This document shows, piece by piece, positions 16,423 to 23,406 of a stretch of DNA of 52,096 bases; the stretch's first letter is position 1, and each line of letters starts with the position of its first letter. The position numbers and the translations under genes are program-made. Below the pieces are notes generated by a model. That model was not told the origin of the DNA and ran no database searches. It worked only from the letters and a program-made list of their open reading frames with translations. Source of the stretch: an uncultured Clostridia bacterium (GTDB lineage Bacteria > Bacillota > Clostridia > Lachnospirales > Lachnospiraceae); the NCBI GenBank assembly GCA_947167565.1, contig CAMVIN010000003.1, positions 1 to 52,096 of the forward strand, in the 5' to 3' direction.

Positions 16423-16640
16423 TCAATTATTGAAATCTCCTGCATTAACTGTTTTGCTGCATTTACCAGCTTTTCAAGCCGAAGTGCGACTTCATTTGTA
16501 TAGAATTTCTCCCCGCATTGTTCACATTCTTCACATGGCACATTTTTAATCACAATCACACAACCTTTGTAATCCACTACATGTGTAGTAAATGTCTGAA
16601 TCGTTGTTTCACATTTGCAATACATACACATATTTATCAC
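16404..16640 (-). CDS. YgiT-type zinc-finger antitoxin
   Basis: CxxC...CxxC ('CMYCKCET', 'CEECEQCGEKFYTNEVALRLEKLV'); overlaps upstream DUF4258 gene by 4 nt. Confidence 0.8.
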   Translation of the reverse strand: MINMCMYCKCETTIQTFTTHVVDYKGCVIVIKNVPCEECEQCGEKFYTNEVALRLEKLVNAAKQLMQEISIIDYSKAA

Positions 16641-16945
16641 TTCCTCCTCGTTTTTAAATCTTCCATAAACTTATCTGTATTCGGATAATAAGCCGTTATA
16701 ATATATAAATATGTTCGATCTGTTCCCACCACTACATGTATTACCTTTTCACTGGTATTATATCCAAAAACCAGACAACTAGGATTAGGAAAATCATCCG
16801 GATAATCTTCAATGATTTCTCCTGATTGTATACACTTTCCCACATCCTCTATGTCGATGTCTCTTTCTTGCATCCTCTCCAAACAGTGTGCAGACCACTT
16901 TATTTGAGAATTAAAATATAGTTTTTTAATAAAATCTAAATCCAT
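16637..16945 (-). CDS. DUF4258-family putative toxin
   Basis: 'WSAHCLERMQERDIDIEDVGKCIQSGEIIEDYPDDFPNPSCLVFGY' typical DUF4258 core. Confidence 0.8.
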   Translation of the reverse strand: MDLDFIKKLYFNSQIKWSAHCLERMQERDIDIEDVGKCIQSGEIIEDYPDDFPNPSCLVFGYNTSEKVIHVVVGTDRTYLYIITAYYPNTDKFMEDLKTRRK

Positions 16946-17660: not shown

Positions 17661-18620
17661 CTACAGAAGATTCTTTTGGTTTGCAAGGCGCTTTTTCAAG
17701 AGGCGCAAAAAATGTTTGTTTCCGATGACCTGAATAGTCGGGCCAAAGGAGAGGATTTCAATCAACAGTTCCCTTTCATTCCCTTTGTTATAGTAAATTT
17801 CGCACTGGTAGGTTGTGTTGTTGATTTGGGCAGTTTTCTTTTTGTAATTGGCAAACTGGAGCATCGCCCGCTCCAGCGTATTTCGCTCGTTTTTTATCAG
17901 AATTGTCACCGGCTCACTGTTGTATCCGTTCGTGATGTAAGTGTCAATGTCCGGCCGCTCTGCCGCGTACTTCCCTGTCTCCTCAAGTCTGGAGATGCGT
18001 GAGAGGTTAATTGTAAAATAATTGTTCGGATTTTTCCCGTGCACTCCCAGAGCGAGTACGCGAAAACAGTCATTTTTGATGGAATATTCCAGTTTGCACG
18101 GAAGATACCAGTGATGTACTCGCCTGTTCCGGGGGGACTCGAATTCAATATTGAGATATTGTCCGGTCTTGATGGCGGACAATATTTTTTGGAAGTGGGA
18201 GCGGTATGTATCGTCTGTATAGTCGTCCCCATCTGTGAACTGATCAAAAATATAAAAGTCGTTTTGCGAAAAAAGCGGTTCTATGTCGCAAAGCACCCGA
18301 CTCAGTTCTGTCAGTTGTTCCTCCGAAAAAAATAACTGAATCCGCACATCGGATAGAATGGCCTTGAGCCACCGCTTTTGCAGGAGGGACAGCACAAAGG
18401 GAGGTTTGTCATCCAGTGTGGACAGATACAGTTCCCCGTCCTTTTTAAAAAATGTCCACTCTCCGTCGGTTATTTTAGGCAAAAGATAGAGAACTGTTTC
18501 CTGAAAGCCCGAGGCGGTGACTGTCGTTTCGAGTTCTGGCCGGGAAAAGCCCCCATTTTTGTTTAAGAGGTCGTGCATAATATTGTAGTAACAGTTGTAG
18601 AGTTCTGAATAGAGCTGCAT
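17661..18620 (-). CDS. WYL domain-containing protein
   Basis: 'KTGQYLNIEFESPRNRRVHHWYLPCKLEYSIKNDCFRVLAL' WYL-like core. Confidence 0.7.
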   Translation of the reverse strand: MQLYSELYNCYYNIMHDLLNKNGGFSRPELETTVTASGFQETVLYLLPKITDGEWTFFKKDGELYLSTLDDKPPFVLSLLQKRWLKAILSDVRIQLFFSEEQLTELSRVLCDIEPLFSQNDFYIFDQFTDGDDYTDDTYRSHFQKILSAIKTGQYLNIEFESPRNRRVHHWYLPCKLEYSIKNDCFRVLALGVHGKNPNNYFTINLSRISRLEETGKYAAERPDIDTYITNGYNSEPVTILIKNERNTLERAMLQFANYKKKTAQINNTTYQCEIYYNKGNERELLIEILSFGPTIQVIGNKHFLRLLKKRLANQKNLL

Positions 18621-18656
18621 AAATTTTCTCCTTGAATTTCTCTGTAGAAAGTGTTT

Positions 18657-20042
18657 TCACTCGTTGGTCTCATAAATCTGATAGAGTGCGTTGATGTCAT
18701 CAAAAAAATGTCTGCGGAGCAGGTGGTTTTCTGTCCCTGGGTTTTGACTGCTATCCAGCTGATAAAAGCGTAGGTCAACAATTCGTCCGATAAAAGTGCG
18801 AAGCCATGGAAACATCTCCTGAGCATCCTGGACAATTGTTTCAAAGAGGAAAGTGTTTTCCCGGAGCTTTGTCATGGTTCCACCCTTGCCCTCTCTCGCA
18901 AGGCGCGTGAGAATAAATTGCTCGGATTGTTCCTGAATATTTAGTGTCAGAACGACTTTTGTTCTCGAGCCGGAGAAGGAGACCCCCCAGATGTAGGGGA
19001 GATTGCGGGCGAGTTTTTCTTCCATTTCCGAAAATGACGAGGTAGCGGTCTCTATCTGCTCCCACTCCTGTTTGCTCCTGTCGCGGCTTGTCAATTCCTT
19101 TACCGATTTAATCTGGTCGAGCCGTACGCAGCGGAAATGATACTTGATTTTATTTGTATTGAACGAATTATTTGTGATTCGGTAAATACAGATGTACCGT
19201 CTGCCGGTGCGTGCGCTGACAAAAATGCGCAGGGGAATCCCACAGAGGGTGAGACTGTCATTTGGTCGGCGACTGCTCTGAATTTCCATTTTGACGTAGC
19301 GGTGATTTTTTTGGGCCAGGAGAAGAGCGTAGGTAATTTCCTCTTCCAGCGTAAATGCCGGAAATCCGTGTTTGACGCGAAAACTCTCGTTTTTGTGGCT
19401 GATTTTGTCTAATATTGTGTTTCCCACATAGCCAAAAGGTGCGCTAAGCTGCATAAAAGAAATGACATCGCTCAGTGGTTCCCGGAGAGATTTGTCACCT
19501 GTATCTGTATGGTCTGCGGTATTTTCGCACAGTTCCTCCCAGGTCAGACCGAGACTGTACAACAGAGACTTTCCGGATTTTGTTGTCGCCAGAATTCCCT
19601 CTTTGACATATTCATTGCACTTGCGCCGGACGAGCTGGGTGTCTACTGCCATCTCATAGTCCTGCGATAAAATTTCCGCGAGTTCACTGGCAGAATAACT
19701 CTGTTTTCTCAGTATATCCAATAAATAAAAATGAAGAAGAATATCATTGTCGGTAAAACTTTTTGTCTTCCATACGGAAAAAAGGGGATTTGTGTTCAGG
19801 AGGTTGCTGTCCAGCTGCAGGGAAATGCTTTTTACCCTGCTTTTTGTGTCCTGCTCGGATAAAGCTTCCTCCACGTAGTCACCGAGCCAGCTCTCGATGC
19901 GTCTGCGCTCGTTGTCGTAGGTGCGGGCACTTTTTCTGTCCGAGGTAAAATCCTGCCGGCTCTTAAAACCGTACACAAAGAAGTCGCGCACGTAGTCTCG
20001 ACACTTGTTAAAATTTTTGATTAATTCCTGAAATTCTGACAT
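18657..20042 (-). CDS. WYL domain-containing transcriptional regulator-like protein
   Basis: N-terminal helical/wHTH region, 'KNHRYVKMEIQSSRRPNDSLTLCGIPLRIFVSARTGRRYICIY' WYL-type core; start chosen at MSEFQELIKNF. Confidence 0.75.
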   Translation of the reverse strand: MSEFQELIKNFNKCRDYVRDFFVYGFKSRQDFTSDRKSARTYDNERRRIESWLGDYVEEALSEQDTKSRVKSISLQLDSNLLNTNPLFSVWKTKSFTDNDILLHFYLLDILRKQSYSASELAEILSQDYEMAVDTQLVRRKCNEYVKEGILATTKSGKSLLYSLGLTWEELCENTADHTDTGDKSLREPLSDVISFMQLSAPFGYVGNTILDKISHKNESFRVKHGFPAFTLEEEITYALLLAQKNHRYVKMEIQSSRRPNDSLTLCGIPLRIFVSARTGRRYICIYRITNNSFNTNKIKYHFRCVRLDQIKSVKELTSRDRSKQEWEQIETATSSFSEMEEKLARNLPYIWGVSFSGSRTKVVLTLNIQEQSEQFILTRLAREGKGGTMTKLRENTFLFETIVQDAQEMFPWLRTFIGRIVDLRFYQLDSSQNPGTENHLLRRHFFDDINALYQIYETNE

Positions 20043-20126
20043 GACGCACCCTTTCGCAACTTTTTTGAAATGATAAAATTTTCCTTCCCTGTTATGATAA
20101 TACCACAAAGAAAAGAGGTGGTAAAG

Positions 20127-21359
20127 ATGTTTGTACATTACAATGAGAACATGAAATTTCCGGTAAAAGTTTGGCTTTCCGGGCACAGTGACGTGGAGGA
20201 GAGCTGTCTGGAACAGGCAGAGCACCTGGCCAATCTGCCGTTTATTCACAAGTGGGTGTGCCTGATGCCGGATACCCATACGGGCAAGGGAATGCCGATT
20301 GGTGGTGTGATAGCGACGAAAGGAGTTATCATTCCGAACGCTGTGGGAGTTGACATTGGCTGCGGGATGAATTTTATTGACACGAATATTAAATTAGAAG
20401 AGATAAAGGATGTTCAGACCGGCAACGGAACGGTTGTTCAGGCGATTGTCGGGGGATTTATGAGAAATATTCCGGTCAACACCGCGCGTCACAGCAAACC
20501 GCAGAAAAGTCCTGTGCTGGACCGCGCCAAGGAGGAAATGGACAAATATGAGAAAAACGCAGATCTAATTCCTTTGATCGAAGACGGCTATTTTCAGGTC
20601 GGAACGCTCGGCGGTGGCAATCATTTTGTGGAACTGCAGGTGGATGAAGAGGGGTATCTCGGCATTATGATTCATTCGGGAAGCCGTCATCTGGGAAAGG
20701 AGATTTGTGATTATTTTCACAATGTGGCAAGGGAACTCAACAACCACTATTTCAGTCAGGTTCCGGAGGAGTGGAGACTTGCTTTTCTCCCGGTTGATAC
20801 GGCGGAGGGGAAGCAGTACATCAACTGGATGCAGCTCGCCATGGATTACGCATTCGAGAACCGAGCGGTGATGATGGAAGCGGCGTGTTCGGTCGTGCGG
20901 GAGGTAATCGAGAAAAACACATCTCTGGCGGTGGAATTCGGAGCGCAGGTCAATTGTCATCACAATTATGCGGCACTGGAAAATCATTTTGGGGAAAATG
21001 TCTGGGTACACAGAAAGGGGGCAAACCGCGCGCGAGTGGGTGACCTTGCAGTAATTCCGGGTGCCATGGGCTCGTATAGCTATGTTGTTGAGGGAAAGGG
21101 AAATGTGGACAGCTTTTGTTCCTCTTCCCACGGCGCAGGCCGCGCATATTCCAGGAGTGGTGCTATGGCGGCGTTCACGACGGAACAGGTCATGGTGGAT
21201 TTGAAAAAACAGGGTGTCGTGCTCGGCAAGGCGAAGAAAAAAGATGTCGCGGAGGAGTGCCGTTTTGCGTACAAAGATATCGACTTTGTGATGGAGAATC
21301 AAAAGGAACTTGTCACACCGATTCGAAAGCTGAAGACAGTGGGAGTGTTAAAAGGGTAA
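20127..21359 (+). CDS. rtcB: RtcB family RNA-splicing ligase
   Basis: 'LMPDTHTGKGMPIGGVIATKGVIIPNAVGVDIGCGM', 'GGGNHFVELQ', 'NCHHNYA', 'VIPGAMGSYSYVVEGKG', 'SSSHGAGRAYSRSGA'. Confidence 0.95.
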   Translation: MFVHYNENMKFPVKVWLSGHSDVEESCLEQAEHLANLPFIHKWVCLMPDTHTGKGMPIGGVIATKGVIIPNAVGVDIGCGMNFIDTNIKLEEIKDVQTGNGTVVQAIVGGFMRNIPVNTARHSKPQKSPVLDRAKEEMDKYEKNADLIPLIEDGYFQVGTLGGGNHFVELQVDEEGYLGIMIHSGSRHLGKEICDYFHNVARELNNHYFSQVPEEWRLAFLPVDTAEGKQYINWMQLAMDYAFENRAVMMEAACSVVREVIEKNTSLAVEFGAQVNCHHNYAALENHFGENVWVHRKGANRARVGDLAVIPGAMGSYSYVVEGKGNVDSFCSSSHGAGRAYSRSGAMAAFTTEQVMVDLKKQGVVLGKAKKKDVAEECRFAYKDIDFVMENQKELVTPIRKLKTVGVLKG

Positions 21360-21469: not shown

Positions 21470-23406
21470 ATGAAAAGTACAAAAGTAAGTTTTTTCTGGC
21501 ACATCAAGAACGTGATTTTGTCGTCAGTGATAGGACTCATGTTACTCATTGTTGTCGTTCTGGTTACCATCAATTCAGTAGAGACTTCTTCCAACACGAA
21601 CTATTATGGAAAAGTCCTGGTTGAAAAGGACTCCCAGAACAATGCGAAGATTATTGATGAGTGGCTGACAGAGCAGGGGAGTCTTGTCGAGATGATGAAG
21701 ACATCACTGGCTAAAATGGATTATGAGGACACAGCGACGATTGAGAATTATCTGGAGGAATGCCTAAAGTCTAATTCTTCAGCACTTATGTATTATGTCT
21801 GCTACGATTATGACGGCGGTGTATTTCCGGCGGATCACTCCAAGCTTGACCTTGACCCGACGACGAGGGGATGGTGGATCGATGCACAGGCGGCATGATT
21901 GTATCGGCATGTTCGCCGTATGAGTGCGAGGGACATACCTGTGCGGTTCTGGCAGACATTTCCCTGGATTCTCTGGTTGAGATGGTTGAGGGAATCAGCA
22001 CAGAGGAGTATATTGAGAGTTTCCTTCTGGCAGAGGATGGAAGCGTAATTATTCATCCGAACAGCGATTTTCTTCCTAAGGAAGAGGGGAATACGATTCT
22101 TGCCGACAAGGTTTCCATGGATATCAATAAGACCGGTGTTCAGATGATTAAGGATTATGATGGGGCAGAGAAACTGCTGGCTATCTCCGATATTCCGACA
22201 ACCTCGAGGAAACTGGGCATTTCGGAAAAGAAGAGCGTGATAACCTCGGAAGTAGTCGGCGTCATTGTGAAGAATTCGGTTATTGCCCTGATTATTATAG
22301 TAGTGGCAGTTATTCTCATCTACTTGCTGATACGGCAGCAGTTGGGAGAGCTGAACCGGATGAGACTGTTCATCAAGGACAAAGTAATCGGTCGTGAAAA
22401 TGTCAAGCTGATGTCCTCCGAGAGTGTGGAAATTGGATATCTCATTGATGAGCTGGAGAGCAGATTCCTGGATACGATTCGTGAGACGGCGAGAGAGTCC
22501 TCTGTCATTTATGGCGATATGGAATCCACATTGAACCGTGTTCAGTCAATGAACGACAGCATTGAAAATATCAGCAGCGCCATTGAGCACACCAGCGGAA
22601 ACACGGAACTGCAGTCCACGAATGTGGCAAGTATTTCCCAGATGAGCGGGGAGATTACCACTGCGGTGGATTCCCTGTCTGAGGAGACCTTGCAGATGGC
22701 AGAAAAAGCGCATGATATTATTACAGAGATTGAGAAGACGCTCCCTGAAATTATGGAAAACAGGAATCGCGCTCTTGAGATTGCAAAAGTGAGCCAGGAT
22801 AAGCTCTCTGATGCGGTGGAGGATACAAAGGTTATTGAGCAGATTGCGGATGTGTCCAGCACGATTATGAATATTGCGAGTCAGACCAATCTTCTGGCGT
22901 TGAATGCCTCTATTGAGGCTACCCGCGCCGGTGAGGCGGGACAGGGCTTTGCGGTTGTTGCCGACAAGATCAAGAATCTCTCCGCCACGACGAGCAGTGA
23001 GATTGAAAAGGTCAACAGCTTTACCGGTAAGGTTATGGAGAGTGTTCACAGACTTGCCGATGAGAGCAAGCGGATTCTGGAATTTCTCGGCACGGATGTC
23101 ATGAGAGATTATGAGATGTTGGCGCGGATTGCGGAGGACTACAAGAATGACGCATCCTTTTATGCCAATGAGAGCGGTACGATTGGTGCGAGCGCTGAGG
23201 AATTGGCGGCTTCGATTAACAACATCAATCATCTTCTGCAGGAACTTCACGCATCACAGCAGGAACTCAGCGACGCGATTTCCGATGTGAGCAGAAATGT
23301 GCAGAATATGTCGGAAAATTCCGGAAATACCACAAAAGAAGTCGGAGATGTCCTGGAGCGTGTAGAGACGCTGCAGAATACAGTGGGAACATTCCATCTG
23401 GATTGA
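21470..23406 (+). pseudogene. Cache-type methyl-accepting chemotaxis protein disrupted by a ~49-nt deletion
   Basis: Two overlapping ORFs (21470..21898, 21871..23406), collinear with the intact MCP at 6429..8414 but lacking the segment encoding '[14 protein letters not shown]'. Confidence 0.85.

Follow-up and report, generated by a model that had tools for sequence, protein, structure and literature searches.

The window analysed here is a stretch of 52,096 nucleotides from an uncultured Clostridia bacterium of the Lachnospiraceae (contig CAMVIN010000003.1). Within it, two adjacent genes on the minus strand, encoding the WYL-domain proteins that we call WYL-B and WYL-A, diverge from rtcB, a predicted RNA ligase gene on the plus strand. 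This arrangement was pointed out in an earlier note, made from the sequence alone, and is confirmed by our analysis, with an intergenic region of 84 bp (the note gave about 85 bp). The features of the locus are:

17661-18620, minus strand: WYL-A, 319 amino acids (aa), with a winged helix-turn-helix (wHTH)-like N-terminus, WYL and WCX domains; proposed second regulator subunit (open reading frame (ORF), PADLOC, alignment, fold)
18657-20042, minus strand: WYL-B, 461 aa, with a conserved basic N-terminus, wHTH, WYL and WCX domains; proposed first regulator subunit (ORF, alignment, profile, fold)
20043-20126: WYL-B/rtcB divergent intergenic region, 84 bp
20053-20073, plus strand: conserved box TTCGCAACTTTTTTGAAATGA, which the WYL-A:WYL-B dimer is proposed to bind (present in nearly all loci)
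20070-20075, plus strand: ATGATA, a weak -35-like hexamer that shares bases with the 3′ end of the box and is separated from the -10 by 17 nt
20093-20098, plus strand: rtcB -10 TATGAT, preceded by TG, 19 nt after the box (spacing count, promoter scan)
20097-20125, minus strand: candidate WYL-gene promoter TTTACC-17-TATTAT, overlapping the rtcB -10 (weak; consensus scan only)
20114-20121, plus strand: rtcB Shine-Dalgarno sequence AGAGGTGG (sequence)
20127-21359, plus strand: RtcB RNA ligase, 410 aa from the ATG at 20127 (Pfam RtcB E 2.4e-111, PDB RtcB matches)

The rtcB gene is intact, as the earlier note had stated: Pfam PF01139 matches over the whole domain (residues 33-413 of a 413-aa reading), and we place the start at the ATG because relatives begin with MFV and the Shine-Dalgarno sequence lies just upstream. 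The motifs GVDIGCG, GNHF, HSGSR, NCHHNY and SSHGAGR are all found in the protein, in which the catalytic Cys/His motifs GCG, GNHF, HSGSR and SSHGAGR begin at residues 74, 159, 183 and 333, and the sequence is alignable with Thermus TTHA1785. The predicted activity is that of an RtcB RNA ligase. This is the single RtcB detected in the genome; searches of this genome and of ten relatives gave neither RtcA (PF01137) nor archease, both absent from the locus according to the note.

Neither WYL protein reaches the cut-off of the Pfam model for the domain (PF13280), from which both have diverged too far. They are assigned to the WYL proteins on profile and fold comparison. WYL-A matches the PADLOC WYL model (E 1e-8), and a WYL-B profile finds PafB/PafC structures with marginal similarity (E 0.009). 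Among divergent relatives, the protein of locus L068 matches Pfam WYL at 0.003 and that of locus L101 matches WCX at 1.3e-5. We also modelled a B-A read-through (TGA read as W) with AlphaFold, from nine paired rows. The model (predicted local distance difference test (pLDDT) 71, predicted template modelling score (pTM) 0.68) has the order wHTH-WYL-WCX twice, which is the fold predicted for WYL-A and WYL-B. Among solved structures, Foldseek ranks 6sj9, a natural fusion of PafB and PafC, first (E 2.7e-17, 765 columns), then DriD (1e-7), and after it BrxR and CapW.

In every locus examined the two ORFs are neighbours that overlap or sit a few bases apart, and a natural WYL-B::WYL-A fusion of 890 aa exists (L068:7306-9978, genome G131), at a locus with no repair gene of the searched kinds nearby. 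For these two reasons WYL-A and WYL-B are most likely two halves of one predicted heterodimeric factor. A second fusion, of 756 aa, joins WYL-A in frame to RtcB (L101:5111-7381, G428), with WYL-B as the upstream gene.

The earlier note had proposed a survey of the gene neighbourhood. Queried with WYL-B alone, the genome-species collection yielded only three loci, and alignment-based searches of whole genomes were needed. WYL-B relatives were searched in 61 genomes and then in 392 genomes of the order, in which RtcB was searched as well. A strong WYL-B match was found in 34 genomes of the order. RtcB is present in 30 of these 34, and in 26 it lies within 8 kb of the WYL-B gene, where 0.2 would be expected. 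In the loci fetched, WYL-B and WYL-A adjoin an RtcB of either of two different families, a DUF2828-DUF7788 protein or a Band-7 protein. The DUF2828-DUF7788 protein has no PF05731 match; from its architecture, we read it as Ro60-like. The pair together with a conserved promoter box (see below) and Band-7 or DUF2828 was also found in other classes of the phylum, so the linkage of the WYL pair to RtcB and other RNA-repair genes extends across the order and beyond it. The case that the earlier note gave as refuting, a neighbourhood not conserved among relatives, thus did not arise. At one locus, on a contig of a metagenome-assembled genome (L003:1-785), a Uma2-like gene stands between the box and WYL-B.

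In the WYL-B tree, RtcB type tracks clades with few switches. The window copy clusters with those of loci L002-L004 and not with its own genus, which suggests that the module moved between species. It is carried by only some species of the genus, and in the window it is flanked by degraded genes.

The otherwise dissimilar intergenic regions have TTCGCAACTTTTTTGAAATGA in common. In almost every locus we found a near-invariant, asymmetric box, TTCGCAACTTTTTTnnnnTGA, oriented into the RtcB, DUF2828-DUF7788 or Band-7/tRNA-like-RNA genes; it faces the repair gene whether the WYL pair is divergent or on the same strand. Its 3′ end varies among the other loci (GAAATGA, TTAATGA, TCCGTGA or TCCATGA). 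Counting -10 elements at fixed spacing from 41 boxes, we found TANNNT exactly 19 nt after the box in 40 of them and at 18 or 20 nt in none, against a background of 3.6%. The promoter unit across loci is thus TTCGCAACTTTTTT, N3, a weak -35 (RTGATA), 17 nt and TATAAT. Within the 3.08-Mb genome, the window box is unique even when up to three mismatches are allowed.

In its exact form, the box was confined to genomes that carry the pair. When 80 genomes were tested, 22 of the 40 with the WYL pair had an exact box and none of the 40 without it did; with one mismatch allowed, the counts were 31 and 3. As was independently predicted, repair genes on a contig other than that of the WYL pair carry the box: it precedes an unlinked rtcB-DUF2828 in G171 and G195 and a non-coding region with DUF2828 in G043, and the unlinked rtcB of G182 has a variant of it. 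The box is absent before paralogous RtcB genes and before the RtcB-DUF2828 operons of WYL-negative genomes.

Some boxes precede RNAs. L002 has a second box, in front of a tRNA-like Rfam match and the DUF2828 gene, and in several loci the box is followed by an RNA with a tRNA-type T-arm and then by Band-7. RNAs of this kind, with a T-arm of the GGGGTTCGAATCCCC type between box and Band-7 gene, were seen in L022 and L023 (G219, G205), L036 and L088. A search of Rfam gave no family for the RNA of L022/L023, and ARAGORN at a lenient threshold gave only noise.

From these observations we infer binding of the box, activation rather than repression, and the kind of ligand. We consider it probable that a PafBC-like WYL-B:WYL-A heterodimer activates an RNA-repair regulon on sensing nucleic acid derived from damage, and, by analogy with PafBC, activation at the box is the most likely working mode. 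WYL-B and WYL-A would form a single transcription factor dedicated to RNA repair. It would bind the asymmetric box (20053-20073), whose 3′ end runs into the poor rtcB -35 from the upstream side, and from there help sigma-A RNA polymerase to start rtcB transcription. Activation is favoured over repression because the spacing between box and -10 is invariant and the -35 is weak. The WYL and WCX domains would sense a nucleic acid that arises when RNA is damaged. Fragments of RNA or broken tRNA are the most plausible candidates, and RNA is the proposed ligand because the targets are RNA-repair genes. RtcB would thus be produced when 3′-phosphate or 2′,3′-cyclic-phosphate ends need sealing. In relatives, the same factor may also control the Ro60-like DUF2828-DUF7788 protein and the tRNA-like RNA with the Band-7 protein. 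Since the regulon elsewhere includes these, the window, where the regulon is apparently rtcB alone, would be a minimal version. The suggestion in the earlier note that the WYL proteins control ligation is therefore supported by the linkage and by strong evidence in cis (the box, with exact copies only in WYL-positive genomes), but the two proteins are more likely one heterodimer than two separate regulators.

Several points weigh against this proposal. Eight WYL-positive genomes have no RtcB nearby; in most of these the WYL pair stands beside a Band-7 gene or the repair genes are elsewhere, and in six of the eight the box precedes other linked or unlinked genes, while the seventh is represented by a very short contig. 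In the eighth, the distant relative G333, no link was seen. At L096:1501-2244 (G421), a box precedes a stand-alone HD-domain gene with no proven role in RNA repair, in a genome where RtcB was not detected; that its product is an RNA-end phosphodiesterase is a guess. Another exact box with a -10 (L093:1501, G424:C15:26807) lies away from the WYL locus, before small ORFs and a GNAT-like acetyltransferase, likewise without a proven part in RNA repair. The AlphaFold model is of moderate confidence, and its global TM-scores are low since domain placement differs, so its domain arrangement is not to be trusted. The known WYL ligands are single-stranded DNA, not RNA. Finally, a box that overlaps the -35 could also be a repressor site.

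This last point leads to the best-surviving alternative, in which the WYL pair sits on the box across the -35 and represses rtcB until a ligand releases it, as is thought for CapW and BrxR at defence operons. Both of these WYL proteins, which regulate defence systems, turned up in the fold comparison, and the box does overlap a -35-like hexamer. However, across about 40 divergent promoters the distance from box to -10 is kept to the exact base and the -35 stays poor, which fits an activator touching sigma better than a repressor. The asymmetry of the box also speaks against repression, as does the best fold match, PafBC, which is an activator. We therefore regard a repressor as unlikely.

Another conceivable reading is that the WYL proteins work directly on the ligase, which they would join as RNA-binding partners, and are not (or not only) transcription factors. 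The WYL-A::RtcB fusion in one genome could be taken this way, the folds of the WYL and WCX domains are similar to RNA-binding ones (PMC6789036), and E. coli RtcR is bound directly by RtcA and RtcB (PMC9650030). A partnership of this kind would leave unexplained the promoter box and its place before unlinked genes other than rtcB, and the model gives each subunit a wHTH-like N-terminus. As an explanation in its own right, we find it distinctly improbable, and it may be a layer added to transcriptional control rather than an alternative; because the WYL-A::RtcB fusion exists, direct contact with RtcB, like that of E. coli RtcR, is hinted at.

Similarly doubtful is the idea that another factor, an alternative sigma or an unlinked regulator, reads the box, and that the WYL pair is no more than a neighbour under the same control. 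The box and the -10 do act as one promoter unit, and a second box is found before WYL-B itself in some loci (L041, L043, L044). Against this, the presence of the box tracks the WYL pair genome by genome, and the same kinds of repair genes have no box where the pair is absent. Moreover, the -10 is an ordinary TATAAT, and the pair is built like a DNA-binding regulator. Chance adjacency, which the patchy occurrence in the genus and the degraded flanking genes might suggest, has a negligible probability and was rejected, being contradicted by the box and by a linkage far beyond chance odds (26/34 against 0.2 expected). A phage-borne module was likewise considered and rejected: the box was not matched in the viral contigs searched, and a search of viral contigs for relatives of WYL-B confirmed none.

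The proposed WYL-B:WYL-A activator most resembles PafBC, a heterodimer that activates the response of mycobacteria to DNA damage together with the housekeeping sigma, with single-stranded DNA in its WYL domains as the trigger (PMC11804915). Both have adjacent paralogous wHTH-WYL-WCX genes with natural fusions (for PafBC in, e.g., Arthrobacter, 6SJ9), a promoter of the housekeeping type and a non-palindromic motif (for PafBC, PMC6789036, PMC11804915), and PafBC is the top fold match of WYL-A/WYL-B. On the other hand, the sequence similarity is marginal and the targets belong to RNA repair, not DNA repair. Judged from the -10, the box, which is unrelated in sequence, would here span about -52 to -32, whereas PafBC uses a -26 motif. 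Tandem paralogous WYL subunits that are sometimes fused, as in PafBC, are thus found here, but close sequence homology and a RecA-NDp motif or DNA-repair regulon are not. The WYL pair may work like PafBC, with the fusion as the evidence for the predicted heterodimer, and we do not class it as PafBC.

The enterobacterial rtcBA and rsr-yrl-rtcBA operons, from which the earlier note had expected the locus to differ, also have a dedicated divergent activator beside RtcB and, in some species, a Ro60-type protein and a tRNA-like RNA (PMC7790460, PMC9650030). The difference is borne out: their regulator RtcR is a CARF-AAA+ sigma-54 activator, which in Salmonella senses tRNA fragments with cyclic phosphates (PMC7790460), whereas here the linked regulator is a WYL pair, the promoter is of the sigma-A type with a TATAAT-type -10, and there is no RtcA. 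DriD, an activator of Caulobacter that senses single-stranded DNA, shares the wHTH-WYL-WCX fold and works with RNA polymerase at promoters, but is a single-gene activator with DNA-damage targets. CapW and BrxR are likewise encoded beside the systems that they control, but these are phage defences (CBASS, BREX), with one regulator gene each. Many relatives of the window locus contain RtcB, Band-7, a Ro60-like protein and a tRNA-like RNA, a combination that recalls the Band-7 and Ro60-type systems with tRNA-like RNAs reportedly described in the RNA-repair operon survey of Burroughs and Aravind (2016).

No paper that connects WYL regulators to RtcB operons was found in the open literature that we covered. 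This did not include the earlier survey, so the neighbourhood may already be known; the promoter box and the regulon test appear to be new within that literature. The box and the two genes define a concrete, testable regulon, with a named DNA site, promoter and protein pair, that bears on the trigger and the substrates of bacterial RtcB outside bacteria with RtcR. The findings suggest that many clostridia have a dedicated RNA-damage control system unrelated to that of E. coli. If the WYL domains bind RNA ends, the pair would be a WYL factor that detects damaged RNA. Such a role has been proposed for the fold, but the literature covered has so far shown it for single-stranded DNA alone. More broadly and more tentatively, at somewhat less than an even chance in our judgement, this could be a widespread and so far undescribed RNA-damage response of Gram-positive anaerobes, in which a heterodimeric WYL activator senses broken RNA directly, instead of single-stranded DNA, and, through one box, turns on a regulon of RtcB, Ro60-like and Band-7 proteins and tRNA-like RNA, as the functional counterpart of RtcR.

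Two further genes of the window lie close to the module. Downstream of rtcB, a chemoreceptor-like gene (21470-23406) is split into the overlapping frames 21470-21898 and 21871-23406 by a frameshift that is either real or from the assembly. On the other side, about 0.7 kb from WYL-A, positions 16637-16945 encode a DUF4258 protein (E 6e-28), a kind of protein that we take to be common in toxin-antitoxin pairs.
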